This document shows positions 45,774 to 64,000 of a stretch of 64,000 nucleotides of DNA, piece by piece. Location of the stretch: positions 1-64,000 of the forward strand of contig NZ_WNXQ01000002.1 of NCBI RefSeq assembly GCF_009789075.1, in the 5' to 3' direction. How positions within the stretch are numbered: position 1 is the first letter of the stretch; every line of letters begins with the position of its first letter. The notes beneath the pieces were generated by a model. The model saw only the letters and a program-made list of their open reading frames with translations. It made no database searches and was not told the DNA's origin. The stretch comes from Pseudooceanicola pacificus. Its GTDB lineage: Bacteria; Pseudomonadota; Alphaproteobacteria; Rhodobacterales; Rhodobacteraceae. A program made the translations under genes and the position numbers.

Positions 45774-46655
45774 GTGCGGATGAACCACCAAGCCTACTCG
45801 AACGGCATTCAGATAGAACAACTCGAAGGTGGCCTCCTGATACAACAAGGTGGCGAGGCCTACATTGCGCGATCCTGGCGTCTCACGCCCTCCGTCGATC
45901 ATTTGATCAGGACAGCAGCTGCCGGTGGGTTGGACTGGATGATCCGCTCGGATCACCCGCTTCGAAAAGCGCGATGGCCCAATGCGAGAGGGGTTGTCTA
46001 CTTGGCCTTCTCGGCGTCTCCTGATCTGCAATGGTCCGTCGCGATCGACACATTTCGCCCGGCGCGCGGTGACTTCGGTCATGCTGTCTTTAACGGCAAG
46101 TATCACGCGCAGTTTGTTACGCGGGGCATCCCGTTTGTCTTCGAGGGGCGCAACAAAACGTCGGGACATCTGGTCGTTGCCAGAGATTTCGTGATCCCGA
46201 CCCTTGTTGAATTGGCGGACTTCGATCACAGCGTCTTGACCCTCAACAGGACGCCACATCAAGGGGATGGCTTTACGACCGAATACGTGATCCAGCACAG
46301 CATACTTGCGAATTGGGAGCAGACGCCTTGGGCGGGACGTTACGACCTTGTTCAGGACGAATTCCCGGTCGATGGAGGGCTCTCTTCTCGGCGGATCGAC
46401 ATTCTGGGACGTGACCAGTTGACAGGAGATTGGCTCATAATCGAGCTAAAGCGCGCCGAAGCGAGGCCCGAAGCCGTGGAGCAGGTGGCGGATTACTTGC
46501 TCGCCCTCGGGAAGCGAGATGACTTTGTATACGGCAAATTGGAAGGAGTCTTAGTCGCCGAACGGATCCCAACCTCTGTCCGTTCATTGGCAAAGGCCGA
46601 GGGCATCACGGCTTACGAAATTGGGTGGCCGATGCAGCTTACGCGTGTCGCCTGA
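45774..46655 (+). CDS. PD-(D/E)xK nuclease-like protein
   Basis: The 293-residue protein contains, near residue 205-240, RRIDILGRD followed by DWLIIELKRAEA. The spacing of the Asp and the Glu-x-Lys on neighbouring strands is that of PD-(D/E)xK nucleases of the NucS/RecB-nuclease-like type. A helix with VEQVADYLLAL follows, as in those folds. The first 190 residues match nothing recognised. The start could be GTG 45774 or ATG 45780; AAAGGGAA is upstream. Codon and base use are clearly less GC-rich than the flanking core genes, which suggests transfer. Role unknown; DNA repair or defence are both possible. Confidence 0.6.
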   Translation: MRMNHQAYSNGIQIEQLEGGLLIQQGGEAYIARSWRLTPSVDHLIRTAAAGGLDWMIRSDHPLRKARWPNARGVVYLAFSASPDLQWSVAIDTFRPARGDFGHAVFNGKYHAQFVTRGIPFVFEGRNKTSGHLVVARDFVIPTLVELADFDHSVLTLNRTPHQGDGFTTEYVIQHSILANWEQTPWAGRYDLVQDEFPVDGGLSSRRIDILGRDQLTGDWLIIELKRAEARPEAVEQVADYLLALGKRDDFVYGKLEGVLVAERIPTSVRSLAKAEGITAYEIGWPMQLTRVA

Positions 46656-49063: not shown

Positions 49064-49167
49064 CGTGATCCCTGCAGGCGGTCCCGGAGGATCAGCGTCG
49101 TGCATTTGCCCCGCCAAAGCGTTCTTCCGATCCCACTGCGGCAGGAAAACCTCGGTGTCACCAAGGG

Positions 49168-50667
49168 TTAGCCCCGGTGGCATTCGACCCGCACGGTCAA
49201 GGCCCGCCAGGTGCGACCGCGTTCGTCTTCGGGCAGGGGGCGGGCGTTGCGAGACTGGTTGATGACCGGCACCTCGTAGCGCTCCAGAAAATCGCGAGCA
49301 ACCGCGCCGCGGATCATGAAGGCGATGTTCTCGATGTTCTTGCCTAGGCTGACGGTGATGTTCGGCTTTGACACCACCACGCCGATCTGCGCGCCATCCG
49401 AGGACAGAACCGGCCCGCCCGAGTTGCCGGGCTGGACCGGCGCGGTCATCTGCATGTGGCGCCGGTCGCCAAAAAATCCGACCGTGCTGGACAACACGCC
49501 CGATGTCAGGTTCAGCGACTGCGAGTCCTGAAAGACCGGATAACCAAGCACGTATAGCTCGGCGCCAAGTTCGGGCGAGGTTTGCGAGAACCGCACCGGG
49601 TTGCGGCCCGCCAGCGAAGGCACGCGGATCAGCGATAGGTCGACCCGCGGGTCGGACCCGATCAGGATCGCGTCCTGGCCGAACACGGTCAGCCGGGCGC
49701 ACCCTTCGACGACATGGTGGTTGGACAGAACATGCCCCTGCAGCGACACGATGGAGCCCGACCCGGTGCCGCGCACCGTGTTCATCCAGGCGGCCTGTCC
49801 GCGCCCGACGCCTTCGCCGCGGGCGGCGCGGGCCTTGGTCTCGGTCTTGGAAAGGCCGGCGCTGTGGAAGGGCTCGAAACTGCCGAGGATCTCGGCGATC
49901 AGCGGGCGCATGGCGGTCACGCTGTCCTCGTCCAAACTGATCTCGACCCCGCGCAGCTGGCCGTTGGCGGTGGAGTATAGCGAATACTTTCGTCGCTCGG
50001 GTCCTTCCTCGTCCTTTTTCCGGACGCCGACCATCGCGGTGAAGCCGCCTTCGCTGCTGGTGACGAGAATGCGGTAGTCGTTCTTCTCGGCGGCCTGGCG
50101 CAGCATGGTTTCGGCCTGCGAGATCGACAGCGCCAGGTCGTAGCGTTCGATGGTCAACGCCATATTCGAGACATCCTGGCTGCGATAGCGGATGTGGCTG
50201 TCATTATCGCCCCAGGTATTGGGGTCGCCAAGGAAGCCTTTGGGCAGGCGCAGGCGGGTGCCCGTCCAATACTGATCCTCCAGCAGAAGGCGGGCGTCGC
50301 GGCGGGTGGCCGAGGCGCGCCTGTCCAGCGCGCGCAGCTGCGCGTCGGTCAGGTGGCCAGTGGCCTGCTCGCCGAATCCCTGCTGGAACAGCCGGATCGC
50401 CGCATCCAGTTCGCGCGTCGACTGCCCGTTGATCTGTCCGCGGTAAAGCCCGATCCACGAAAGTTTGGTCTGCAGGTCCTCCAGCCGGCCGGCCTGGCCG
50501 GTCCGGTTGGCGGGCAGGCCGATCATGGCCATCAGGTTGTCGGGCGCCGTCCGGGCGGCAGCCGGTCCCGCCCCCAGACCGGCCCCCAGACCTGCCAGCA
50601 GAACAGCAAGGGCAATGCACAGACGCATTGCCCTGCAAGCGTGCCGTATGCCGATCGTCGGTATCAT
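49168..50667 (-). CDS. Secreted trypsin-like protease with peptidoglycan-binding domain
   Basis: The 499-residue protein has a signal peptide (LCIALAVLLAGLGAGLGAGPAAA) and a PG_binding_1 domain (residues about 55-115, LSWIGLYRGQINGQSTREL). A spacer of unknown fold comes next, then a chymotrypsin/HtrA-like protease domain. The triad is visible: His318 in SNHHVVEG, Asp343 in RVDLSLIRV and nucleophile Ser416 in QPGNSGGP. It should act in the periplasm near the cell wall. The ATG overlaps the lipoprotein stop (ATGA), making it the last gene of the six-gene operon. No protease is part of the classic Tag system. Confidence 0.88.
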   Translation of the reverse strand: MIPTIGIRHACRAMRLCIALAVLLAGLGAGLGAGPAAARTAPDNLMAMIGLPANRTGQAGRLEDLQTKLSWIGLYRGQINGQSTRELDAAIRLFQQGFGEQATGHLTDAQLRALDRRASATRRDARLLLEDQYWTGTRLRLPKGFLGDPNTWGDNDSHIRYRSQDVSNMALTIERYDLALSISQAETMLRQAAEKNDYRILVTSSEGGFTAMVGVRKKDEEGPERRKYSLYSTANGQLRGVEISLDEDSVTAMRPLIAEILGSFEPFHSAGLSKTETKARAARGEGVGRGQAAWMNTVRGTGSGSIVSLQGHVLSNHHVVEGCARLTVFGQDAILIGSDPRVDLSLIRVPSLAGRNPVRFSQTSPELGAELYVLGYPVFQDSQSLNLTSGVLSSTVGFFGDRRHMQMTAPVQPGNSGGPVLSSDGAQIGVVVSKPNITVSLGKNIENIAFMIRGAVARDFLERYEVPVINQSRNARPLPEDERGRTWRALTVRVECHRG

Positions 50668-51446
50668 CCCAGCAGCACCTGCAACGCCTCGATCTCGGCG
50701 TTGACCTTGGACTCGCTGCGGGTCGAGACGGTGATCTGCTGGCTGCGCTCGCTCGACAGGCGGGCGACGTTCGGCGTCTTGGCGCGCGCGCCGGCCGAGT
50801 TGATGCCCTGCTGCGTGCGCGCGACCGAGCCGGTGACGTCGACAAAGGCGTCCAGACGCTGCCCGACACCGTTGAATGCGGCCGAGATCAGGCGGTTGTC
50901 CTGCGCCACCCAGACTTTGATCTGGTTCAGCTCAGAACGTGCGGCGGTCTTGGTGACCTTGCCCGACACAGCCCGGCTGCGCAGCGAGGCAAGCTGGCTG
51001 CTGCGGCAGTTGCGCAGGTTCTTCGCCGCCGTTCCGGTGCGCGTCAGCAACGCACGTTCCTTGCCGGCGTCTGCGTTCACATTGCCGAGCAGCGAATTGG
51101 CATCGGCCGATCGTTGAGCGACCTGCTTGTAATAGACCTCGCTATACCCGGCCAACCCGCCCAGCGAGGCCCCGATCAGGGCACCCTGCGCGCGGTTGTC
51201 GCTGCCGGCAACCGCCGCGCCCAGCACCGCGCCAATCAGCGCGCCGGCGATGGCGGCATTGGCCTGTTTCTGAAGGTCCGAGCGGCGCGATGCCTCGACA
51301 TCGGCCCGGAACTTCGAACAGGTGTCGGCGGCGTTCACGGCGCCGGGTGCAAGGGTGATCTGTTCATCGCACCCTGCGAGCGACAGGCTGGCGACAAGTG
51401 CGATGCAACCCGCCTTGCCGGTGTTGGAAAGAAGTTCGAAATTCAT
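50664..51446 (-). CDS. Glycine-zipper lipoprotein, TagQ-like by position
   Basis: The 260-residue protein has a lipoprotein signal with lipobox LAGC (lipid-modified Cys26). A glycine-zipper hairpin at about residues 66-100 (AGALIGAVLGAAVAG and GALIGASLGGLAGY) could insert in the outer membrane. The rest is helical and rich in Ser, Arg and Asn. In Pseudomonas the gene next to tagR encodes the outer-membrane lipoprotein TagQ, and this gene holds the same place here. Direct sequence similarity to TagQ could not be tested. Confidence 0.7.
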   Translation of the reverse strand: MNFELLSNTGKAGCIALVASLSLAGCDEQITLAPGAVNAADTCSKFRADVEASRRSDLQKQANAAIAGALIGAVLGAAVAGSDNRAQGALIGASLGGLAGYSEVYYKQVAQRSADANSLLGNVNADAGKERALLTRTGTAAKNLRNCRSSQLASLRSRAVSGKVTKTAARSELNQIKVWVAQDNRLISAAFNGVGQRLDAFVDVTGSVARTQQGINSAGARAKTPNVARLSSERSQQITVSTRSESKVNAEIEALQVLLG

Positions 51447-51470
51447 GATATACCTCCAAATGTCATCTGA

Positions 51471-53438
51471 TCATTGCCGTTGTTGATCCGGGAAGCGGCT
51501 GCGCCGCAGGTCGCGCACGCTGTCCAGCTGGTTGATCCAGCTGCGGCGCATGGTTTCGGTGACCTGACCCCGCGCGGCGCGGATCTCGGTCTGGTGAGTG
51601 GTGAAAAGATCGAGGTAGGGCCCGAAAACCTCGACGCCGAGGCCAGCATAGCCGCGCCTGGTCTCTGCCAGGCGGGCATCCACGAAGGCGGGCTCGAAGC
51701 TTGCGATCTTGGTCTGCATCTGCAGGTAGAGGTCAAAGGCAGCGTCGATCCGGGTCTGGTTGACCTCAAGCTGCTTGGCCGCCTCGGCCAGTGCATCGGT
51801 GATCTCGCGCGTCTGCGGGCGGCGGTCGCGCAATTCGCTGACGCGCTGCATGCCGGCGAACATGTTGCGCCCGATCCGGTCCATCAGGTTCGCGGTGGCG
51901 ACGGCCGATCGGGCGGACAGGCGGACCTCTTCGGATTTGCTTTCGCGGAGGCGGACGTTCATCCGGTCGATCTCGACCTGAAGCTGGGCGACGCGGTCCT
52001 TCAGCTGGCTCTGCGTCAGCGTCCCGACCGACACTTCGCGGCGCAGGCGGTTCAATTCGGCCTCCAGGTCCTTCGCGTTGGTGTCGTCATTGATGCCCAC
52101 GCCCTGATCCAGCAGCGTGCCGCGGCCCTGCATCATCGCCTCTTCCAGGGGGGTGTTGGCCAGCCCCTCGACGAAGTCGTTGCCGGCGTCGCGGCGGCCG
52201 ACGAAAACCGGGGCAGAGACCAGCAGCCGCGTGCCCATGGTGGCCGTGCGGCCTTCGCCGCGCGCGGTAAAAAGGGCCTGCGCCTCGACCCGGCGGCCGA
52301 CGGTGTTCTGTTCGCGCAGGAAAAGCGAGTTTCCGCCCTTGGTCACCACGCCGCCGACCTGTCCAGCCAGCCCGTCCGGGCGGGTCATGCGGAACAGGTC
52401 AAAGACGATCTCCTCGGCGTTGCACAGCGTGTCGAGCAGGCCGAAGGCATTGGGCCGGGTCATGCCGACCGGGGCCAGCCCTGCGGTTTCGCCGCGCGGA
52501 GGCTCGGCACATATCTCGGGCAGCAACGGCTGGACGGTCTGGCCGGTGTCCGGGTCCAGCACGCCGGGCAAGCGCAGGCTGCGGCTTTGCGGCGTCACCT
52601 GGCTGGCGCCACCGCGCGCTGCGAATTCCCACTCTGCCTCGGTGGGCAGGCGGACATAGCCGGTCGCGCCCTGTTCCCAGGGCAAGTCGGGGTTCTGGCC
52701 GGCCGCGATGCGTTCGCTATCGCGGGCGATCAGCCAGTTCGAATAGTCGCGCGAATAGCCGACCGCATCGAACCACGACAGGCCGCCCTGGGGCGGGATG
52801 CGGCGCAGCTCCATGTCGCGCAGACCTTGTTCAAGCGGCGCGCAGGCGGGGCCGGCGGGGTCGGCGGTCTCGGCGGCGGGCAGGTCGAAGAGGCCAAGCG
52901 CGCGTATCGACCACTGGACGGAGGTCAGCTCGTACTTGGCAAGGTAATAGGCGCGGGCGGTGGTGTCGGCGATGGCACCGCTGGTCAGGGGGCCGCTGGC
53001 CTGCGACAGCGAGAAAGCGCCCGAGACCGGCGTCGTCCAGGGCCCGTTTGAGAGCACGATCTGCGCGGATTCAGCGTCGATGTCGACACTGCGCCCGAAA
53101 CTGCCGTCGACCTGATCCAGCAGATGGTCCACCGGCACGTCAATGCGCTGAAAGATCATCGACCGCCCGCAGGGCATCGGCAGCGCCAGCACGGCTGGCA
53201 GGGTGGCGCCGCCGCGCCGCTCGGGGCAGGGGACGTTCGACAGGTCGCGCTGGTTCTTCGCAATCAGCTCTTCGCGCGCGCTGCGCCAGGCGGCCGGGTC
53301 GTCTACCAGGCACCAGCTGCCGCCGGTCGGGTCCGGCTGCGCCGCATCCTGTGCCGCTAGCGGCCGCGGTGTCAGGGGCCAGGTCAGCGCCGCAAGGCCG
53401 GCCAGCACCGCCAATGTCCCGCGAGCCCGTTCAGTCAT
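51471..53438 (-). CDS. Secreted SUMF1/formylglycine-enzyme-fold protein, TagR-like
   Basis: The 655-residue protein has a signal peptide (LAVLAGLAALTWPLTPRPLAAQ). A SUMF1 (FGE-sulfatase) fold lies at about residues 160-420: YYLAKYELTSVQW, GLSWFDAVGYSRDYSNWLIA, YVRLPTEAEWEFAARGG and a final NAEEIVFD region. A long predicted coiled coil (about 440-510) and helical tail end it. TagR of the T6SS phosphorylation pathway is a periplasmic SUMF1-fold protein that activates PpkA. The formylglycine-forming cysteines are not obvious, so a binding role is more likely than catalysis. Its ATG lies eight bases inside the end of the permease gene. Confidence 0.82.
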   Translation of the reverse strand: MTERARGTLAVLAGLAALTWPLTPRPLAAQDAAQPDPTGGSWCLVDDPAAWRSAREELIAKNQRDLSNVPCPERRGGATLPAVLALPMPCGRSMIFQRIDVPVDHLLDQVDGSFGRSVDIDAESAQIVLSNGPWTTPVSGAFSLSQASGPLTSGAIADTTARAYYLAKYELTSVQWSIRALGLFDLPAAETADPAGPACAPLEQGLRDMELRRIPPQGGLSWFDAVGYSRDYSNWLIARDSERIAAGQNPDLPWEQGATGYVRLPTEAEWEFAARGGASQVTPQSRSLRLPGVLDPDTGQTVQPLLPEICAEPPRGETAGLAPVGMTRPNAFGLLDTLCNAEEIVFDLFRMTRPDGLAGQVGGVVTKGGNSLFLREQNTVGRRVEAQALFTARGEGRTATMGTRLLVSAPVFVGRRDAGNDFVEGLANTPLEEAMMQGRGTLLDQGVGINDDTNAKDLEAELNRLRREVSVGTLTQSQLKDRVAQLQVEIDRMNVRLRESKSEEVRLSARSAVATANLMDRIGRNMFAGMQRVSELRDRRPQTREITDALAEAAKQLEVNQTRIDAAFDLYLQMQTKIASFEPAFVDARLAETRRGYAGLGVEVFGPYLDLFTTHQTEIRAARGQVTETMRRSWINQLDSVRDLRRSRFPDQQRQ

Positions 53439-54654
53439 GGCGCAGCCCCTTCGTCGGTTCCAGCCGCGCCGCCCGATAGCCGGCAAGGCAACCCGCCGCC
53501 GCTCCGGCGGCGGTGGCGGTCAGCGTGGCCACCAGCAGATGATGCGGGGCGATTTCGCTGATCCGGCCGGAAAGCCCGGCCAGCCCCTCGAGCCCGCGAT
53601 TGATCAGGGGTTGCAGGCCAAGCGCGATCAGCGCCGCGGCGACCGACCCGGTCAGCGCGATCATCATGCCCTGCAGCGATGGCATCAGCGAGATTTCGGC
53701 GCTGCTCAGCCCCAGCAGGCGCAACAGCGAAAGTTCGCGGGATTTCTCGACCACGCTGGCGGCCAGATGCAGGCCAAGGGTCAGCAGGAACCCGGCGGAG
53801 GCCAGCGAGGAGATGGCGAAGAATATCCAGGTCAGCCCGGTCTCGATCTCGAGCGCGGTTTCCACCGCCGAGGCGCGTGTCTCGACGTCCAGCCCGTCCT
53901 GCAACAGGCGGTCGCGCAGGCCCGGCACATCGCGCACGTCGCGCGCGAACAGGCGGAAACTGGCAATGCTGCGCGCGCCGGCGTCCAGCCGGGTTCCGGC
54001 GCGGGCGCTTTCCCAGCCGAGTTCGGGCACCGCGAAGCCTTCGCGCCAACGCTCGATCGCGCCTTCAAGCTCGGGCGCGACAAACACATCGTCGGTCTGA
54101 AGCAGGTCGCGCGGGATTGTGCCGACCACGGTGACCTCGTGGCGAAGGCTTTCGCGCTGCTCGCCGACGGTGCGCAGGATCACGAAGGTGATCGTGCCGC
54201 CGGTCCTGACACCGGTTTCGATGGCGGCGCGTTCGGTCAGCACGGCCTCGGACAGTCCCGCGGGGGCGGGGCCGCCGGCCAGGTAAGGATCGCCGGTGAC
54301 CGAGGGGATCATCCGGCTGTCCAGCATGGACCGGCTATCCGGGCCACGCAGCCGGACCGATCCGGCCAGATACCGCGCCCGAGGCAGGAGGAAGGCGACC
54401 CGGGGGTCGTCTGCGAGGTCGGCGAACCACGCTTCGGTCAGTTCGGTATCGCGCATCAGGCGGATTTCTCTCACGCGTGGGTCATCGCGCAGGCTCGAGA
54501 TCATGTTGTTAACCACGCCGAACTTCAGCGCGTAGAGCAACAGCAAAGGCAGCAGCGCCACGGTCACCGCGATGCAAAGGCAGCCAGCGGCCTGCCAGCC
54601 GTGCAGCAGATCGCGGCGCGCCAGTCGGAACAGCAGGCCAAGGCGCAGACTCAT
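53431..54654 (-). CDS. FtsX/MacB-type ABC permease, TagS-like
   Basis: The 407-residue protein has the MacB/LolE topology. One membrane helix near the N-terminus (CIAVTVALLPLLLLYALKF) is followed by a large periplasmic domain to about residue 280, and three helices at the C-terminus carry the FtsX motif (ELSLLRLLGLSSAEISL). Such mechanotransmission permeases move force rather than solute across the membrane. It overlaps the ATPase gene upstream and the SUMF1 gene downstream, so the three are tightly coupled, matching tagT-tagS-tagR. Confidence 0.88.
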   Translation of the reverse strand: MSLRLGLLFRLARRDLLHGWQAAGCLCIAVTVALLPLLLLYALKFGVVNNMISSLRDDPRVREIRLMRDTELTEAWFADLADDPRVAFLLPRARYLAGSVRLRGPDSRSMLDSRMIPSVTGDPYLAGGPAPAGLSEAVLTERAAIETGVRTGGTITFVILRTVGEQRESLRHEVTVVGTIPRDLLQTDDVFVAPELEGAIERWREGFAVPELGWESARAGTRLDAGARSIASFRLFARDVRDVPGLRDRLLQDGLDVETRASAVETALEIETGLTWIFFAISSLASAGFLLTLGLHLAASVVEKSRELSLLRLLGLSSAEISLMPSLQGMMIALTGSVAAALIALGLQPLINRGLEGLAGLSGRISEIAPHHLLVATLTATAAGAAAGCLAGYRAARLEPTKGLRHD

Positions 54655-55442
54655 GCGGATTGCACCTGTTGGGGCAGCGGCGCCAATGTCGATGTCTCGC
54701 CACCGCTTCCGGTGTGCGTCTCCAGGCGGCGCACGGTGAAACCGTAGCGTGTGGCGAGGTCCTCGTTGTGGCTGACCATGACAAGTGTAGCGCCGGTGGC
54801 CTTGGCGGCGTTGACCATGACCTGCATGACCTCGTTCGCCGTCGCGCCGTCAAGCGCGGCGGTCGGTTCGTCCGCCAGCAGGATAACAGGCGCCGAGGCC
54901 ATGGCGCGCAGCACCGCCGAACGCTGGCGCTGCCCGCCCGAAAGGCCGGCGGGCAGGCGGTCGAGCATGCGTTCGATGCCCATGGCAGCGGCCAACGCTT
55001 CGATCCGTTCGCCGATCTCGCGCCCGCGCTGGCCGGCCAGTTCGGCCGCCAGCAGGGCATTGTCCCGCACCGAAAGATAGGGCAGAAGTCCGCCATCCTG
55101 CAGGACGAAGCCCATCGTGCGCGACCGGATCGCCGAAAGCACGGTGGCCTGTCCCGCAAGGATCGGTTCCTGCACCGACAGAAGGCGGCCGTCGCCGTAG
55201 GGCGACAGGTCGTAGCGGTCCAGCGCGTCCGGGCAGCTGAGCAGGCCGAGAACCTCCAGCAGGGTGGTCTTGCCGCTGCCGCTGCGCCCGACCAGGCAGA
55301 TGCGTTCGCCGGCGCGGATCGTCAACTCGGGCACGGACAGCCGGAACCAGGCCTGCCGCGAGGCGTCGAAACGCGCCACCTCCAGCCCGCCGAGCGCCAT
55401 GATAGGGCGGGCCGGACGGCTTTCGCTTGGCACTTCGGTCAC
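54651..55442 (-). CDS. MacB/LolD-type ABC transporter ATPase, TagT-like
   Basis: The 263-residue ATPase has Walker A GRSGSGKTT, a Q-loop in MGFVLQDGGLLPYLSV, the signature LSGGQRQR, Walker B VILLADEP and the H-loop VSHNED. All catalytic residues are intact. The RQAWFRLSVPELTI start resembles LolD/MacB nucleotide-binding domains. Its stop overlaps the permease ATG (4 bases), and it begins 12 bases after the vWA gene. Confidence 0.92.
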   Translation of the reverse strand: MTEVPSESRPARPIMALGGLEVARFDASRQAWFRLSVPELTIRAGERICLVGRSGSGKTTLLEVLGLLSCPDALDRYDLSPYGDGRLLSVQEPILAGQATVLSAIRSRTMGFVLQDGGLLPYLSVRDNALLAAELAGQRGREIGERIEALAAAMGIERMLDRLPAGLSGGQRQRSAVLRAMASAPVILLADEPTAALDGATANEVMQVMVNAAKATGATLVMVSHNEDLATRYGFTVRRLETHTGSGGETSTLAPLPQQVQSA

Positions 55443-55454
55443 GGCGCGCGGTCC

Positions 55455-57992
55455 TCAGGGCAGGTTGCGCAGTGAGACCGGGGTGGCTTCGAGGCCGGGG
55501 TCGTCCGCACCGAAATCGACCCACTTCTTGGTGTCGTTGAACAGCTCTCCGTAGACCCGCCGCTTGCCGTCGATCGATTCAATGAACTCCTGCCGCGCGG
55601 CGACGCTGATCGAGGACCAGTATTCGCGGTCGAGCCGCAGCACCTGGCTGCGATAAGGCAGGTTCTTGAGGAAGGTCGGCAGGATCGAGGCGACGATGTC
55701 GCGCCCCTCGGGGATGGGCTTGTCGGGGTCGGACGAGGTTTCGGCCGCCAGCACCTGCAGCTTGTCGAAGAAAGCGCCGGGATCGTCGCCGCCAGAGCGG
55801 TAGGCCTGCACGATCAAGTCCAGACGCTTGTCGAGCGTGGACAGCTGGTTGCGGGTTAGGAACACGCTGACCTCGAGCGCGCGGCGTTTGGGGTCGCTCA
55901 GGTCCTTGTCTGCGGCCCATCCGGCAAGGAAGGTCGGGGCATCGCCCCCATTCGCGGCGGCGAGACTTTCCAGCTGGGCGCGAAAGATCTCGTTGCGCAC
56001 GGCGGCGGCCAGGCGGCCCGAGCTGCCCTCGGCGGGGATCGGCTCCAGCGCTTCGACCGAATTGATCATCTCGCCGGCCGAGGCGGTAACAACGGCCTGT
56101 GCCAGGGTCCGGCTCATCGTGTCCAGTTCGCGGCCGAATTCCTCGTCCGAGGTGGCGTCGATGGCGACGTATTTCTGAACCGCTGCGTCGCCGGTGCTGG
56201 AGATCACGCGATATTGCGCCTCGCCGCTGGCGAAATCGGCCGAGTTGGCGGGGGTGCGCAGATGCAGCGTCGCGATGGCGATGTTGCTGCGGTTGGCGCC
56301 ATCCGCCACCGTGTCCGACGTGACACTGGCCAGGGCGGCCAGCGGGTCGCCGCCCTCGCGCGCCGAGGCGTCGGTCACCAGGATGATGAGGCGGGCGTCG
56401 AAGGGTTTCCAGTCCATCTCGCTGATCGCGGCCTGGATGCCGGCAAAGCTGTCTTCGCGGAAACCGACCGTCGGGACCGTGGCCTCGCGGATCTGGCGAG
56501 CCTGGGCAAGCACGGTGGCCGGGTCGGCCTCGATGTCCAGCGGCTGGAATATGCGGGTCACATATTCGAGCCCGCTAGGGTTGTTGCCGATATTGTCGCG
56601 GAACCCCACGATGCCGAAGCTGACGTTCTGCGTAGTCTCGAACTGCTGGAACGCGTTGTAGAAACTTTCGATGGTCTGATATGTGCGGTCGATGAACGGC
56701 CCCATCGAGACGGTGGTGTCGATCACGAAGGTCACGCCGATGCGGAACACCCCGTCGTTGCGCGCGGCCGAGGAATCGGCCGAGACCTCAAAGCTTTTCT
56801 CGTCACGCGGCGCGATGGCGCTGGCGTTGGCGGGCACGGCGGCGACCTTGAGCAGAACGGTCTCGTCGGCCCCGTCAAAGGCTTCCTCGCGCCAGTCGAG
56901 GATCGGCAGCAGGTAGGGCTGGTTGTCGAAGGTCACGGCTGTTTCAGGTTCGATCGCCACCAGTTCGCGGACCCACACCGGCTGATAGGCCGGATCGGCC
57001 TGCACCTTTTCGCGCTCGGCGCGGATCCGGTCATAGAGTTCGGCCGCCTCGCTGGAATAGTATGGGCTGTTCACCATGTCCGACAGGACCGTGGCGTCGT
57101 CGAAGAACAACACCTGACCGCGGCTGCCGCGCGGCGCAAAGTTCATCACCAGCATCGAGGACCATTTCAGCGTGTCCGCCGTGCGTATCCAGCCCGAGGT
57201 GCCTTCGCGCAGGGACGAGCCGACCTCGAGCCAATTCTCGCCACCCGCGAGAGCTTCGTCGAAGACATAAAGCAGGTCGAAGACGGGCAGTTCGGTTCCG
57301 TCGCCCGTGTCGGTGACATCGGCGTGCAGCGAGGCGTTCGGCAGGGTCAGGACGCGGCGGAACAGGTTGTCGTTGTCGGGATCGACCATCGGGCTGCGGC
57401 GAGCGGCAGGCGTCGCGTCGGCCGCGGCGGTGCCCTCGCCGGTTGCCCCGTCGGTGGCGGCGCTGCCCTCTGCGGCGGCGGCGGGCTGACCGGTGGGCGG
57501 CTGCGGCGTTTCACCGGCGGGCGCGGCATCGACCGAGGTGTCGGGCGTGGTTGGACTGGCGGGCGCAGCGGATGCAGCGGATTCGGCGGCGCTGACAGCG
57601 TCGCTCAGCGCCGCGACGGCGGTGGAATAGCTGTCGACCTGCACCCTGGCTGCATCCAGTGCACCCTGGATCTCGGCGGTGACGGCCGGGGCCGTGCCGG
57701 TATCGTCGCACGTCACCTCAGGCATGGAATCCTCGCCAAAGAGCGTGTCTGGCAGCTGCGGCTTTGCTGGCAGATCGGGCAGGGCGCCGGCGGCCTCGGC
57801 AGTCAACGCTGTGGCGCGCAATTCCAGCCCGTCCGCCCGTGCAACAAGTTTGCGAAGGCTTTTCTGCAGGCTTACATATTGATCGCGCAGGTCCCGGACA
57901 ATTGCCTGTGTGTCGGAATTGCATTCCGCCAGAACGGGCGATGACATCACGGTCAGAAAAATGGATACAACAAATGCAGACCTAAACTTCAA
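55455..57992 (-). CDS. Secreted von Willebrand A protein resembling the periplasmic part of PpkA
   Basis: The start is a TTG at 57992, fixed by a perfect AAGGAGG eight bases upstream and by the signal peptide that follows (cleaved after SSPVLA, residue 22). A helical region and a low-complexity Ala/Pro/Thr linker (about 135-200) come next. A beta-rich domain (about 208-310: LFRRVLTLPNASL, WLEVGSS, GWIRTADTLKWSS) precedes a vWA domain whose MIDAS motif is DTTVS with Asp425. The C-terminal 220 residues are helical. The beta-rich plus vWA order resembles the periplasmic part of the T6SS kinase PpkA, but there is no kinase domain or membrane anchor. First gene of the operon. Confidence 0.8.
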   Translation of the reverse strand: MKFRSAFVVSIFLTVMSSPVLAECNSDTQAIVRDLRDQYVSLQKSLRKLVARADGLELRATALTAEAAGALPDLPAKPQLPDTLFGEDSMPEVTCDDTGTAPAVTAEIQGALDAARVQVDSYSTAVAALSDAVSAAESAASAAPASPTTPDTSVDAAPAGETPQPPTGQPAAAAEGSAATDGATGEGTAAADATPAARRSPMVDPDNDNLFRRVLTLPNASLHADVTDTGDGTELPVFDLLYVFDEALAGGENWLEVGSSLREGTSGWIRTADTLKWSSMLVMNFAPRGSRGQVLFFDDATVLSDMVNSPYYSSEAAELYDRIRAEREKVQADPAYQPVWVRELVAIEPETAVTFDNQPYLLPILDWREEAFDGADETVLLKVAAVPANASAIAPRDEKSFEVSADSSAARNDGVFRIGVTFVIDTTVSMGPFIDRTYQTIESFYNAFQQFETTQNVSFGIVGFRDNIGNNPSGLEYVTRIFQPLDIEADPATVLAQARQIREATVPTVGFREDSFAGIQAAISEMDWKPFDARLIILVTDASAREGGDPLAALASVTSDTVADGANRSNIAIATLHLRTPANSADFASGEAQYRVISSTGDAAVQKYVAIDATSDEEFGRELDTMSRTLAQAVVTASAGEMINSVEALEPIPAEGSSGRLAAAVRNEIFRAQLESLAAANGGDAPTFLAGWAADKDLSDPKRRALEVSVFLTRNQLSTLDKRLDLIVQAYRSGGDDPGAFFDKLQVLAAETSSDPDKPIPEGRDIVASILPTFLKNLPYRSQVLRLDREYWSSISVAARQEFIESIDGKRRVYGELFNDTKKWVDFGADDPGLEATPVSLRNLP

Positions 57993-58019
57993 GGAAATGT
58001 CCTCCTTAAATTTGCATGC

Positions 58020-58048: not shown

Positions 58049-58731
58049 GAATGAATGGGTCGCAAATGTGACAGGAATTTGGGGCCTGCCAGAAAATGCG
58101 CGAAAGGGTCCGGGTCAGGTCACTGATCGCCCCGTCGCCGGGCACCGCAGGGCCCAAGCTGCGATTCGGCGTCAGCCAGATCCGGGAAGCGCCTGATACA
58201 GCGACATCTCGGTATGCTATGCGTTGGCCCCGCTCGCGGCAGTCATCGCGACCTTTTCCCAGATCCTGACCAACTGGCTCCGAAAGCTCTTGCACGGAAT
58301 GCGGCACGGTATGCGGCCGAGGATAATCCTGATCGGTTCCGGCAGTCTCGACGCGGCCATCGTCTCGGTGCTGGCACGCGACCACGGGCTGAGGGTGCCG
58401 GGCCCCGACATCCGCAAATCGCAGCGCCATGTGACGGGGGGCTGGGATCAGCCTGGTGATCAGCGGTAACTACGGAATGCACTGTGCTTCCCTCGTCCGG
58501 GGACGGGGCATTCATTATGCAATAGGGCCCGCGGGCGATATGACCTGTGCCCCGATTTTCCTGCGAATTGGCGCAGAGTCGGCAGATTGATTTCCGAGGC
58601 AGGGCGGCGCGCATTGTCGCCAGTTTCGGGCGCCAACTCCACGGGCGGCAAGTGTCCGACGCCCGGGTGAGGCCGGTGCTGAGTGTCGTCGTGCTGCCAT
58701 GGAGCCTGTCGAGAGCGCCCTGTCGGAGATC
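58049..58731. other. Gap between the Tag-like operon promoter and the regulator pseudogene
   Basis: No complete gene was recognised. Short open frames on both strands, for example around LARDHGLRVPGPDIR at 58370-58415 on the plus strand, look like worn fragments but cannot be assigned. Confidence 0.45.
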
Positions 58732-59225
58732 CTAGCGGTCCCTGACGGCCTGGCCCAATGTGGACGCCGCCTCCATCACCATGGGGGCCATGCGGTTGCG
58801 GAAGTCCTCTTCGCTCCAGTCCGAAAGCGAGGCGGCCAGGTGAACCGCGGCGATTGGGGCGTCCCGAACTGTCGGTCACGGCGGCGCCGATGGCGATTTC
58901 GCCCATCAGGACCTCTTCCAGCACCACGGCATAACCGTCTTCGCGGGCGCGGTCGATACGGCGGGCGACCTCGGCCTTGTCCAGCACCGTCCGCGAGGTG
59001 AACGCGAAGTAATCCGCCGTTTCGACGATCTCAAGCATCTCGTCGCGGGGAAGCCGTGAGAGCATGGCGCGCCCGCCCGAGCTTTGCGGACAGGACAGGC
59101 GGTGACCGACCAGCGTGGCATAGAATGTCCCGCGCTTGCTTTGCAGGCGCACCGCGTAGATGTGGCTGGCGCCGTCCTCGCTGTTCCGCGCGAGGCGGGC
59201 GCGGCGGCTGATGCTGGGGCAGGCG
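58732..59225 (-). pseudogene. IclR-family transcriptional regulator, truncated and frameshifted
   Basis: Two frames together give the effector-binding domain of an IclR regulator: HIYAVRLQSKRGTFYATLVG, EVARRIDRAREDGYAVVLEE and AIGAAVTDSSGRP in one, and AAVHLAASLSDWSEEDF to VMEAASTLGQAVRDR in the other. A single extra base near 58854 causes the shift; removing it restores GRPIAAVHL. The helix-turn-helix domain is missing because the sequence changes into a peptidase fragment at about 59230. It would once have controlled the adjacent peptide operon. Confidence 0.75.
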
Positions 59226-59234
59226 GGACAGATC

Positions 59235-59438
59235 GACCTCGCCGCCAACCGGGCCGTGACGTCGGACCATCTGTCGGTTCCCTCGTCGATCTGCATGCAT
59301 CCCGACCCTGCGCTGCCGCCGGACAGGCGTAACATGACCGTCGCTTCTGCCGTGGTCGACCTGACCGCCTGCAGGCTCTGGGTCACCGACGGCCCGCCCT
59401 GCGAGGCCGAGTATCACTCCTATGACCGGCAGGCGTAG
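59235..59438 (+). pseudogene. C-terminal fragment of a C45-type peptidase/acyltransferase
   Basis: The plus strand encodes VTSDHLSVPSSICMHPDPAL and NMTVASAVVDLTACRLWVTD, then GPPCEAEYHSY and a stop. This pattern is the end of peptidase C45 (penicillin acyltransferase-like) proteins. The N-terminal catalytic part is gone; the left edge abuts the opposite-strand regulator fragment, marking a deletion or inversion point. Confidence 0.6.
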
Positions 59439-59461: not shown

Positions 59462-60702
59462 ATGAACACCATTCCCCGATCCACGCCGCGCGACCCGCGC
59501 ACACCGAGCGCCCCGATCCTGCCGCGCGACCGCTGGTGCCTGCCGCCGCATCACCGTTGGACCTTCAGCCACATGCTGGAAATGACCGCGACCGCGACCG
59601 CGGCCATTCGGCGCGGGCAGACAGCGGTCTGGACGCTTCCGGCCGCCGCGCGGGACGTCACCGGCATCGGTTTTGAAAGCCACCGCGAGACCCGGACGGT
59701 CGGGGCCTGACTGGTGGCGGATCAGACAGACGGGTTCCTGGTGCTGCACCGCGGCCGCATCCTGCACGAAAGCTATTGTGACGCCATGCGCCCGCAGGAC
59801 CTGCACTTGTCGATGTCGATGTCGATGTCGATGTCGATGTCGATGTCGATGTCGATGGCCAAGTCGATCCTGGGCATCCTCACCGGCATTCTGGCCGACG
59901 CGGGACGGATCGACCTGGCGGCCCCGCTGGCCGCGCACCTGCCCGAGCTGGCGGCGACGGGCTACAGGGGGGCAACGGTGCAGCACCTGCTCGCCATGAC
60001 CTTGGGCGTGGTCGTCGACGAAAGCTACGACGTGCCCGGGTCGCACATGCAGAAATTGGGCGAGGCCGTGGTATGGGCGGATGGCCCGCGCACCGAAGGC
60101 TGGCCGCAGACCGTCTGGCAACTGATCCTCGAACTGACCGAGACCGAACGCGTCCACGGCGCTCAGTTCCTGTATCGCTCCATCGAAACCGACCTGCTGG
60201 GCTTTGTAGTCGAGCGCGTGACCGGCCAACCGCTGGCCGAGCTGGTGTCCGAGCTGATCTGGCAGAAGATCGGCGCCTAGGAGGACGCGGCCTATACGCT
60301 GGATCACGGCGGTTTTGCCTTGGCCGACGGCTGGTTCAACGCGATCCTGCGCGACTATGCCCGCTTTGCTCAAATGGTGCTGCACGGGGCGTGGCGAATG
60401 CCAGGCGCGTGGTGCCCGAAGCCTGGATCGAAGAGGTGCGGTTCGGCGCCGGCGGCGCCTTTGGCGGACCGCATGCCGAAGTGCTGCCAAGGGGCGGCTA
60501 TCACAACAAGTGGTGGCAGACCGATCGCGGGCGCGGCGTGATCATGGCGCAGGGCATCTATGGCCAATGCATCTATCTTGAATTCGAGGCCCGCTTCGCC
60601 GCGGTCAAGCTGTCGACCTGGCCGACACCCCTGAGCGTGCCCGGCGCCAGGACGCGGCTGGCGGCACTCCGGGCCATCGGGCGCGAGGTTGCGGCGTCAT
60701 GA
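59462..60702 (+). pseudogene. Beta-lactamase-family serine hydrolase, inactivated
   Basis: The fragments line up as one class C-like hydrolase. An N-terminal part (HRWTFSHMLEM to GFESHRETRTVGA) ends in a TGA at 59708. The middle carries GFLVLHRGRILHESY and the likely catalytic S-x-x-K in MAKS after a serine-methionine repeat, and ends in a TAG at 60278 where GAG would restore the frame. A base is missing near 60390, after which RVVPEAWIEEVRFG resumes in another frame to the true stop at 60702. With two nonsense codons and one frameshift it cannot make a full protein. Its stop overlaps the permease start. Confidence 0.8.
59810..59857 (+). repeat. Hexanucleotide tract (TCGATG)8
   Basis: Eight perfect copies of TCGATG encode eight Ser-Met pairs directly before the catalytic serine region of the hydrolase pseudogene. 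Changes in copy number would keep the frame. Intact relatives, as remembered, have about two such pairs. Confidence 0.95.
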
Positions 60703-61640: not shown

Positions 61641-62470
61641 GCGCGATTTTCCGGGGATCGGGGCGCATCGGGCTGGCCGGCTGGATCGGCGGCGCACTGG
61701 CCTTCGCGGTCATCGCCGTGGCCGCGTTCGGGCCCTGGCTTGCCCCTTATGATCCCATGGCACTGGATCTGCGTGCGCGGCTTTCGGCGCCCTACCTGGA
61801 TCACCTGCTGGGCACGGGCGAGTTCGGGCGCGACATCCTCAGCCGGCTGATTTTTGGCGCGCGGGTCTCGATCTTTGTCGCCCTGTCTACGGTGGCCGTG
61901 GCGCTGGTCATCGGCGTGGGATTCGGCGTGCTGACGGGGTTCGTGCGTGCGTGGACCGACCGGATCATCGGTATCTTCAACGACGCGCTGCTGGCGTTTC
62001 CGGGCCTGTTGCTGGCGCTTGGCGTCATGGCGGTGGCGGGTGCATCGGCAGGGGCCATGGTGCTTGCGCTAGGCCTGGCCTTTGCCTCCGCGGTGCTGCG
62101 TGTGACGCGGTCCGCTGTGCTGTCTCAGCGCGCGCGCGAATTCGTCGAGGCCAGCCGGGTGATGGGAAATTCCGAGGCGCTCACCATGTGGCGGCACGTG
62201 CTGCCCAACGCGCTGGCGCCGCTGATCGTTCTGGCGACCTCGATGTTCGGCTGGGTGATACTGGCCGAAAGCGCGCTGAGCTTCCTTGGCCTGGGCGTCC
62301 CGCCGCCCGCGCCGTCCTGGGGCAACATGCTGGCAGCCGCGCGGCCCTATATCCAGGATGCGCCCTGGCTGATTGTTCTGCCGGGTTTGTGCATCCAGGC
62401 CACCCTGCTGGGGGTCAACCTGCTGGGCGATGCCCTGCGCGACCTGCTGGATCCGAGGATGCGGACATGA
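61637..62470 (+). CDS. Peptide ABC permease (DppC/OppC-like)
   Basis: The 277-residue protein has the usual DppC features. There is an N-terminal helix, the HLLGTGEFGRDILSRLIFGARVS motif and the EAA loop (FVEASRVMGNSEALTMWRHVLPNALAPL). The C-terminal ALSFLGLGVPPPAPSWGNML ends the conserved part. The frame is intact and overlaps both neighbours by ATGA. With its partner permease, hydrolase and ATPase all broken it is probably no longer functional. Confidence 0.85.
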   Translation: MSAIFRGSGRIGLAGWIGGALAFAVIAVAAFGPWLAPYDPMALDLRARLSAPYLDHLLGTGEFGRDILSRLIFGARVSIFVALSTVAVALVIGVGFGVLTGFVRAWTDRIIGIFNDALLAFPGLLLALGVMAVAGASAGAMVLALGLAFASAVLRVTRSAVLSQRAREFVEASRVMGNSEALTMWRHVLPNALAPLIVLATSMFGWVILAESALSFLGLGVPPPAPSWGNMLAAARPYIQDAPWLIVLPGLCIQATLLGVNLLGDALRDLLDPRMRT

Positions 62471-62790
62471 GTCTTCTTGAGGTGGAAGCGCTGCGGGTGC
62501 AGGCCGGGCTGACCGGGGCCGAGGTTGTCAGCGACCTGTCCTTCACGCTGGGCGCGGGGCGCATTCTGGCGCTGGTCGGCGAAAGCGGGTCGGGCAAGAC
62601 CATGGCCGCGCGGTCGGTTCTGGGGCTGCTTCCCCATCCGATGCGGATTGCGGGCGGCGCGATCCGCTTCGTCGGCACCGACCTGACATCGCTCGCCCCC
62701 CGGCAGATGGCGGGTTATCGGGGCGCCCGGATCGGGATGATCTTTCAGGAGCCGATGACGTCGCTGAACCCCGCGCTGCACATCGGCCGC
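62467..62790 (+). pseudogene. N-terminal fragment of a peptide ABC transporter ATPase (DppD/OppD-like)
   Basis: The first 108 residues are a normal start of an oligopeptide ATPase: Walker A VGESGSGKTMAARS near residue 37 and the Q-loop MIFQEPMTSLNPALHIG. The signature, Walker B and C-terminal zinc-binding region are missing. Just after the Q-loop the sequence changes in frame into a primase-like protein. Confidence 0.8.
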
Positions 62791-64000
62791 GCCCCGAAGC
62801 GTCTGCTGGTCTATCGCACGGCCGCACCGTTTCGAGGCATCAAACGCCATCAGCTCGAAGTGCTGTGCCTCGGGCTGCAGTTTCTGGCTTATGCCGACCA
62901 CCCCGACACCGGCGCGCCCTATGTCTGGCCCGACGAGGGGCTGGCCGATCTCGATATCAGCGATCTTCCGGAAATCACCGAGGCGGCGGCGGCGGCCTTT
63001 CTTGACGAGGCCTATGCGATCCTGCCCAAGGCCCTGCGTCAGCGCGGACTGCGCTCGGCAGCACCGGCCACATCCCTGCGAAGCCACAAGCAGATCGGCA
63101 CCTTGTCGGCTATCCGGTCGGCGCTCGACTGGCTGCCGAATGACGAGCTCGATTACGACAGCTGGATGCGCATCGGCATGGCGCTGAAAGGGGCGCTTGG
63201 CGGTGAGGGCGGCGAGGTTTTTGCCAACTGGTCGGCTCAGGCGGCCAAGGATGTGCCTGCGACGACCGTCCGCGCCTGGGCGAGCTTCAAGCCCGACCGG
63301 ATCGGCGCAGGCACAATCTACCACCTCGCCATGGAGCGCGGCTGGCAGCCGGATGCCGCCTTGCGCCTCGACGGCAGCCTCGATCCGGACGGCCCGCATC
63401 CGGCCGCCGATCTACTGGCCCGGCTGGAGGGGAGCGCGCCGACCGTGGCCGCCCCGGAAAAGCCCATCTTCAACCTGACCATTCCCGACGGTCTTGTCGG
63501 CGATCTGACCGGCTACATGCTGGCGACCGCGCGCCGCCCGCAACCGCTTCTGTCGCTCGGGGCCAGCCTCTGCGCGATCGGGGCGTTGATGGGGCGGCGG
63601 TACCGCACGACCAGCAACCTGCGCTCGAACCTCTATGTCGTGGGGATCGCCGACAGCGGTTCGGGCAAGAACCACGCCCGCGAAATCATCAACGAGGTCT
63701 TCTTCGAGGCGGGTCTCGCCCACCATCTCGGCGGCAACAAGATCGCGTCCGGCGCCGGGCTCCTGACCGCGCTTCATCGGCAGCCCGCGATCCTGTTCCA
63801 GATCGACGAATTCGGGATGTTCCTCTCGGCCGCCGCCGACCGCAAACGCAGCCCGCGCCATATCACCGAGATCCTCGACAACATGACCGAGCTCTTCACC
63901 GCAGCGGGCGGGATCTTCCTCGGGGCGGAATATGCGAACCGCGACGGCACGAACGAGCGGCGCGACATCAACCAGCCCTGCCTTTGCGTCTATGGCACCA
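62791..64000 (+). CDS. Primase/AAA replication protein of a mobile element (5'-truncated, runs off the window)
   Basis: The reading frame from 62467 stays open to the last base, at least 511 codons. From residue about 109 it resembles the end of a prim-pol domain (KRLLVYRTAAPFRGIKRHQL and YVWPDEGLADLDI). A PriCT_2-like domain follows (SALDWLPNDELDYDSWMRIG to FKPDRIGAGTIYHLA). The last part is a DUF3987-like ATPase with Walker A ADSGSGKNHA at about residue 395 and ILFQIDEFGMF as Walker B. Such proteins prime replication of phages and integrative elements. Its own N-terminus has been replaced by the ABC ATPase fragment. Confidence 0.7.

Follow-up and report, generated by a model that had tools for sequence, protein, structure and literature searches.

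The six-gene operon at positions 49168 to 57992 (minus strand) is, with a probability that we put at roughly 55%, a T6SS-independent trans-envelope sensor of the TagQRST/PpkA type, lacking the kinase half of PpkA and equipped with a wall-bound serine protease as its output. It lies in the window, the whole stretch of 64,000 nucleotides that was analysed, and its near-contiguous genes run in the order vWA protein, ABC ATPase, FtsX-type permease, SUMF1-fold protein, lipoprotein and protease. The features are as follows.

58001 to 58007, minus strand: ribosome-binding-site-like AAGGAGG ahead of the TTG start of the vWA gene (sequence)
55455 to 57992, minus strand: secreted vWA protein of 845 aa with a TTG start, homologous to PpkA's periplasmic half but kinase-less (PpkA profile match, Foldseek; signal peptide by eye)
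54651 to 55442, minus strand: ABC ATPase, TagT-like, GTG start (Pfam ABC_tran, 6.1e-22; profile match to genes in the TagT position)
53431 to 54654, minus strand: FtsX-type permease, TagS-like (Pfam FtsX, 1.3e-10; hhalign to TagS)
51471 to 53438, minus strand: SUMF1-fold exported protein, TagR-like (Pfam FGE-sulfatase, 4.3e-20; hhalign to TagR)
50664 to 51446, minus strand: glycine-zipper lipoprotein, distant TagQ homologue, SLAGC lipobox with Asp after the Cys (Pfam Gly-zipper_YMGG, 1.5e-07)
49168 to 50667, minus strand: exported protease with PG_binding_1, a middle domain and Trypsin_2 (Pfam, triad alignment, fold)
49150 to 49166, minus strand: terminator-like hairpin just past the protease stop (weak evidence)

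The ORF positions, the Pfam domains and the spacing confirm six coupled genes with the domains given in the preliminary description of this DNA. The ABC and FtsX genes overlap by 4 nt, as do the lipoprotein and protease genes; FtsX and SUMF1 overlap by 8 nt, and gaps of 12 and 24 nt separate vWA from ABC and SUMF1 from the lipoprotein. For the SUMF1 gene we used the start codon ATG at 53438; the TTG at 53486 gives only the longest ORF. Because nine terminator-like sites were found where 6.0 are expected, the hairpin is weak evidence on its own.

An independent scan of named genomes found the block complete and in unchanged order in 8 of 10 loci. These eight loci and the window make up type A, which thus has nine carriers. 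The five proteins aligned (all except the ATPase) share 36–59% identity between the window and the other type A loci, and the flanking genes mostly differ, a pattern that goes beyond coincidence. A TIR_2 gene and two further genes stand directly upstream on the same strand in three of the nine loci; no TIR gene occupies that position in the other six, the window included. Among viral contigs there was one pattern match and no confirmed relative. In the core tree, which was midpoint-rooted without an outgroup, type A forms one clade (bootstrap 100). This tree excludes L022, L023 and L069 as duplicates of L077, L085 and L086; L006, L037, L038, L046–L049, L051–L053 and L076 as partial or cassette-less; and L059, L063 and L071, each missing one of the four core matches. 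L039, L065 and L068 were labelled as Srf-linked by default, with no Srf gene visible before their contigs end, and L065 was placed outside the Srf clade.

Homology to the Tag proteins, which had previously been inferred, was examined by aligning the window's families with hhalign against families from six TagQ-equivalog loci. The vWA family matched PpkA over 615 columns (E 2.4e-71), the permease family matched TagS over 393 columns (E 2.2e-58) and the SUMF1 family matched TagR over 565 columns (E 1.5e-35). The match of the lipoprotein family to TagQ (202 columns, E 1e-17) was the weakest of the four. The window-family ATPase profile scored 238–256 bits on the TagT-position genes of T6SS loci. 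Furthermore, in all six T6SS-type loci fetched, tagT-S-R-Q adjoins the PpkA periplasmic domain in the order seen here, as the preliminary description proposed. Its claim that the window operon differs in being transcribed from the vWA end did not survive, since ppkA-tagT-tagS-tagR-tagQ runs in that same direction in 6/6 of these loci. With PpkA and TagR both matched, and no T6SS locus with PpkA that uses these genes in the standard way seen in the incomplete window genome, the earlier interpretation is supported in part: it keeps its Tag homology and its absence of kinase, FHA and TssC, and loses the reversed direction.

The identity of the vWA protein is secure from the PpkA profile match and from the similarity of its model to integrin/vWA folds (Foldseek, E 3.8e-07); Pfam alone is weak here, with VWA_4 at E 0.0011, under the model's cut-off. 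The whole-length structural model has low confidence (pLDDT 65.1), with higher values in the vWA part. Pfam found no kinase domain within the protein and a signal peptide can be read by eye, in agreement with the earlier view of it as free and secreted. Searches against PDB sequences gave only chance-level matches for the vWA protein and none at E 1e-5 for the SUMF1 protein.

The relationship of the lipoprotein to TagQ calls for more care. The window protein scored 52.7 bits with the TagQ model (NCBIfam NF041250) and did not reach its equivalog cut-off of 300. All nine type A lipoproteins matched this model at E 1e-5 or better, and eight of them also matched a generic glycine-zipper model. With the TagQ model, other glycine-zipper proteins reached E values down to 3.4e-14, their matches covering only the zipper; because such proteins score as well as the window lipoprotein, a single match to the model proves little. 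We nevertheless rejected a likeness confined to the glycine zipper: a control hhalign of two OmpA-type sequences aligned 82 columns (E 9.6e-10), as against 202 here, and context decides. In six of the nine type A lipoproteins Asp follows the lipobox Cys. In E. coli, Asp at this position leads to retention in the inner membrane, and by that rule the lipoprotein would be held there, unlike TagQ.

The protease contains a PG_binding_1 domain (aa 62–114, Pfam 2.9e-07), a middle domain that matches no Pfam name and a Trypsin_2 domain (aa 302–430, Pfam 8.2e-20). Sequence and fold together predict a trypsin-like domain with a His-Asp-Ser triad, and H318, D343 and S416 are invariant in all nine type A proteases. 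The trypsin-like domain is shared with the periplasmic proteases HtrA/Deg/DegS and MarP; unlike these, the window protease has an N-terminal peptidoglycan-binding domain and no PDZ domain (none by Pfam up to E 1), and it scores far under the MarP and Deg cut-offs. A full-length orthologue of it and the close form of the vWA protein occur in the same 3 of 149 genomes of the host's family (Rhodobacteraceae).

The absence of kinase, phosphatase, FHA and T6SS genes (the last judged by TssC) from the window held up: Pkinase, FHA and TssC had no match there or elsewhere in the window genome (66.85% complete), and one PP2C query found nothing in the window. The survey of carriers with and without T6SS, judged by a TssC match, showed that seven of the nine lack TssC and that the other two have it on contigs different from that of the block. 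We therefore rejected the idea that the operon is part of a T6SS locus. FHA matches were missing from 7/9 carriers, the window genome among them, and a Hanks kinase (Pkinase) was missing from three and present somewhere in the genome in six. Two near-complete carriers have neither kinase nor FHA matches. An Srf-type cassette was likewise rejected, since SrfB and SrfC (one query each) were absent from the window and from the eight other type A loci. On the other hand, the lack of a kinase is not special to this operon, because three kinase queries gave no match of at least 60 bits in any of the 28 Srf-linked loci retrieved.

With the TagQRST-PpkA-PppA system of the Pseudomonas H1-type T6SS, the operon has five homologous genes in common, and their order and direction agree. 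It differs in having no kinase domain, PP2C, FHA or T6SS genes, in its free, exported vWA part and in the added protease. Tag genes next to srfB/srfC in the absence of T6SS were already described in 2013 (PMC3608642), and in the searched literature, which takes in few subscription journals, the available text of that paper is the only description of Tag genes without T6SS. The operon is therefore a new, protease-bearing variant and not the first of its sort. The reported cassettes (srfB, srfC, a Hap-like gene and tagQRST/ppkA, in host-associated Deltaproteobacteria) are similar in that, according to the same text, their genomes mostly lack T6SS. The window operon, unlike them, has no SrfB/SrfC, belongs to a separate clade and carries its wall-binding domain on the same protein as the protease domain.

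By analogy with these systems, we infer the following course of signaling. Envelope damage would be perceived by the lipoprotein together with the TagR-like SUMF1 protein, as TagQ and TagR suggest, and these two would act on the free vWA protein of the periplasm, the counterpart of the PpkA region with which TagR reportedly interacts (PMC3224232). The TagT/TagS-like ABC pair might then use ATP hydrolysis to change shape on its periplasmic side. FtsEX changes shape on that side upon ATP hydrolysis, and the proposed likeness is that an ABC/FtsX-type pair drives an enzyme at the wall, in the periplasm; in contrast to FtsEX and its wall-enzyme partners, this enzyme is a protease, accompanied by Tag-like partners. 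Such a change could switch on or position the peptidoglycan-tethered, HtrA-like protease, which may cut a periplasmic substrate, for example a wall hydrolase, or a stress regulator in its outer part.

The protease might instead be a maturation or reset factor that trims the vWA protein, the TagR-like protein or the lipoprotein at the wall, with an unlinked partner as the true output. Its place as the last gene, its absence from the five-gene relatives L054 and L084 and the unlinked Hanks kinase in six of nine carriers fit this explanation, but trypsin-like genes stand beside differently built cassettes and the two near-complete carriers have no kinase or FHA match; we consider it unlikely. Somewhat less likely again is a defence against phage or contact-dependent weapons triggered by envelope injury, in which TIR genes would, in some carriers, be the output of a protective or suicidal response, and the protease would serve as a coupled step. 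The upstream TIR_2 genes and the reported response of TagQRST to outer-membrane damage (PMC11881912) would suit it; however, most type A loci lack the upstream TIR gene, PADLOC was unmatched by the vWA, SUMF1 and lipoprotein products, and the protease matched only the protease domain of RT-Protease_XI.

That the operon is a MacB/Lol/FtsEX-like housekeeping machine, handling lipoproteins or wall enzymes without sensing, appears improbable. The ATPase does score, always under the cut-off, with FtsE, LolD and MacB models, and the permease weakly with LolC/E, but kinship to TagS, TagR and PpkA is far stronger and the close form is rare within the host's family. We give least credence to the operon being what remains of a decayed T6SS locus: the seven carriers without TssC speak for it, yet six open frames are conserved in nine genomes with the triad residues intact, and two carriers have both the block and, on a different contig, a T6SS.

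The preferred reading of a Tag-type sensor with a protease output suggests that this sensor is used more widely than the T6SS name implies. How TagQRST detects injury is described as still unsolved (PMC11881912), since the Pseudomonas readout is a whole secretion machine and a kinase cascade. A sensor beside one protease, in genomes without TssC or FHA (two of them near-complete and without a Hanks kinase match), would offer a clean system for asking whether the Tag/ABC part can signal in the periplasm. More tentatively, the vWA-ABC-FtsX-SUMF1-lipoprotein cassette may serve Proteobacteria in general as a portable sensor of envelope injury, with T6SS control, SrfB/SrfC, tubulin-like GTPases, FHA-proteases, TIR proteins or a wall-bound protease as outputs; in kinase-free genomes it would be an all-periplasmic, ABC-driven mechanical protease switch, and in some carriers it could lead to TIR self-destruction.

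A trypsin-like protease is a repeated partner of the cassette in the host's family, which lends indirect support to the sensor's presumed control of proteolysis, but the pairing is common there only. Such a gene lies near 11 of 12 Srf-linked loci inside the family, a feature that these cassettes share with the window. Outside the family a trypsin match was found in 3/12 Srf-linked loci, in two of these on the far side, and there was none in L054 and L084; the cassette in general thus does not need a protease. A kinase/FHA-linked cassette (genome G051, locus L036) resembles the window operon in combining a trypsin-like protease with ABC, FtsX, SUMF1 and vWA genes and no TssC, but has two kinases, and its protease is fused to FHA in place of PG_binding_1.

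The six genes lie head to tail with intergenic spacings of −8 (overlap) to +24 nt (gap). The order of transcription is exported vWA protein, ABC ATPase, FtsX-type permease, SUMF1-fold protein, glycine-zipper lipoprotein and, last, a protease that combines a peptidoglycan-binding domain with a trypsin-like domain.

49168–57992, minus strand: six-gene operon
Ahead of the first gene (vWA): AAGGAGG site
3′ of the last gene (protease): terminator-like hairpin

The lipoprotein matched the NCBIfam TagQ model at E 3.7e-14, far under the model cut-off, and unrelated glycine-zipper proteins scored equally well. Therefore, six loci with TagQ above the cut-off were fetched as a T6SS-type reference set. 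In all six, ppkA-tagT-tagS-tagR-tagQ are co-directional, as are their counterparts in the window, and kinase and PP2C queries matched (6/6); a published study likewise places tagR downstream of pppA-ppkA (PMC3224232). L042, the sole reference locus scanned with Pfam, has TssM/IcmF, TagF and PP2C as neighbours, and its vWA-bearing protein contains a kinase domain. Profile–profile comparison aligned the window vWA protein with PpkA over 615 columns (E 2.4e-71), the permease with TagS over 393 (E 2.2e-58), the SUMF1 protein with TagR over 565 (E 1.5e-35) and the lipoprotein with TagQ over 202 (E 1e-17), versus 82 columns (E 9.6e-10) for a two-sequence glycine-zipper control. Because the PpkA alignment takes in the whole of the window protein beyond roughly residue 197, up to the C-terminal end, the vWA protein is, as judged from sequence, the periplasmic half of PpkA, freed and carrying its own putative signal peptide (recognized by eye).

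A scan of named genomes gave 10 loci, and in eight of them the block is complete with its gene order unchanged; these eight and the window are referred to as type A (n=9, counting P. atlantica and the Albidovulum MAG once each). The carriers besides the window are:

Pseudaestuariivita atlantica (G072)
an uncultured Rhodobacteraceae
Paracoccus sulfuroxidans
Ruegeria halocynthiae
Pseudogemmobacter bohemicus
P. hezensis
Paracoccus sp. IB05
an Albidovulum MAG (G014)

Of the other two loci in the scan, that of a Rhodospira MAG has five genes, with no protease match within the 1.5 kb remaining on the contig; in the second, on Tistrella mobilis pTM1, a kinase and PP2C adjoin the cassette, and TssC lies about 20 kb off on the same contig. 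Among 149 Rhodobacteraceae genomes, the vWA protein matched in 19 (one marginal), its close form was found in three, including the window genome, and a full-length protease orthologue occurred in exactly those three; any protease match at E 1e-15 was seen in 24. Across 385 alphaproteobacterial genomes the close vWA form occurred solely in the window genome, and 21 others had more distant relatives. Genes flanking the block are mostly unshared among the nine loci, except for a TIR-bearing pair (three loci), downstream genes of the close relatives L081–L083 and a small number of weak matches. In the window lipoprotein, the residue after the lipidated Cys is Asp (51366–51371, minus strand); this position is Asp in 6/9 type A loci, Thr in two and Phe in one. 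In E. coli, Asp after the lipoprotein Cys directs the protein to the inner membrane, and by analogy the residue hints that the lipoprotein may reside there, unlike TagQ.

A midpoint-rooted tree of 50 loci was computed from four core proteins (LG+G4+F on 1742 columns, with 1000 ultrafast bootstraps), and all type A loci formed a single clade in it with bootstrap 100. Adjoining it are cassettes of five genes in which no protease matched, L084 (79) and L054 (98); next come two cassettes with a Tubulin_2 neighbour (100) and then the T6SS group (99). In the two with this neighbour (L055:5121-16398, L064:5062-16923), the five-gene Tag-like cassette is preceded by a Tubulin_2 GTPase, Pfam-confirmed in L055 and represented in L064 by an ORF that resembles it, and by a small zinc-ribbon-like protein. 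Cassettes beside srfB/srfC (Srf-linked) formed a separate group (95), two members of which were so labelled by default. A trypsin-like gene was present in 11 of the 12 Srf-linked family loci with at least 8.5 kb upstream, the exception (L024) also lacking SrfB. The Srf-linked loci of other Alphaproteobacteria had one in 3/12, lying in two cases at the cassette's far side, and the pairing of cassette and trypsin is therefore not general. The PG_binding_1 domain is fused to the protease in type A, whereas a PG_binding_1-type gene stands separately after SUMF1 in 10/12 Srf-linked family loci (local queries; one Pfam-confirmed). In genome G051, where TssC was not found, the row (L036:1680-10992) reads kinase, trypsin-FHA fusion, ATPase, permease, SUMF1, second kinase and vWA.

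TssC was detected in two of the nine type A carriers, on contigs other than that of the operon, and FHA matches were confined to these two, at most 4 kb from TssC. More broadly, TssC occurred in 9/19 vWA-positive family genomes, always on a different contig. No Hanks kinase match was found in three type A genomes, namely the window genome (66.85% complete, which makes this absence weak), P. atlantica (99%) and the Albidovulum MAG (98%). The remaining six had 1–4 matches each, none inside the fetched loci with the kinase queries used; in L078 a kinase is on the contig of the operon, about 775 kb distant.

T6SS-independent Tag genes are already known from Campbell et al. 2013, who described tagQRST/ppkA together with srfB/srfC and a Hap-like gene in host-associated Deltaproteobacteria, only one of which had T6SS machinery (PMC3608642). 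The operon is Srf-free and kinase-less and carries a wall-binding protease, a combination not found in the open-licence literature searched. The triad positions of the protease (H318, D343, S416, from the family alignment) are invariant in 9/9 type A loci. Its structural model (pLDDT 79.8, pTM 0.53) matches Deg/DegS, and Pfam gave no PDZ match. The predicted signal peptide and PG_binding_1 domain indicate that it should be exported and seated on the wall.

TagQRST is reported to be an outer-membrane damage sensor in P. aeruginosa (PMC11881912) and TagR to interact with the PpkA C-terminal domain (PMC3224232); the operon retains counterparts of all of these. Because no kinase is present for inward reporting, an all-periplasmic circuit is the simplest arrangement and the most likely one. 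From the homology and gene content of the cassette, which are observed, we infer each signalling step: the lipoprotein and the TagR-like protein would act as sensors, the vWA protein as relay, the ABC pair as mechanical switch and the wall-tethered protease as the acting end. We place the probability that the protease is the output at roughly 0.55, slightly lowered by the count of trypsin neighbours outside the family.

Three of the nine type A loci have a TIR_2 protein (626–650 aa) and two more genes directly upstream of vWA: a protein of 284–292 aa that belongs to no Pfam family, and a small ORF in which two hydrophobic segments were recognized by eye.

L077:5721-8980, same direction as vWA: TIR_2 gene set
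L078:5706-8992, same direction as vWA: TIR_2 gene set
L080:5655-8992, same direction as vWA: TIR_2 gene set

The set is absent upstream of vWA in the window, and the single TIR_2 match of that genome is on a different contig. An ORF with an IclR C-terminal match (58460–59386, minus strand), which looks like a fragment, lies upstream of the operon. A NucS_C endonuclease domain protein is encoded nearby (45774–46655, plus strand). A beta-lactamase-family ORF (59714–60702) carries a hexanucleotide array, TGTCGA x10.2, at 59808–59868; its frame ends with a stop at 60280, and an ORF in another frame overlaps it (60073–60702). Finally, within a single open frame at 61951–64000 (plus strand), an ABC_tran match is followed by one to PriCT_2; this unusual combination may reflect a frame or assembly anomaly.
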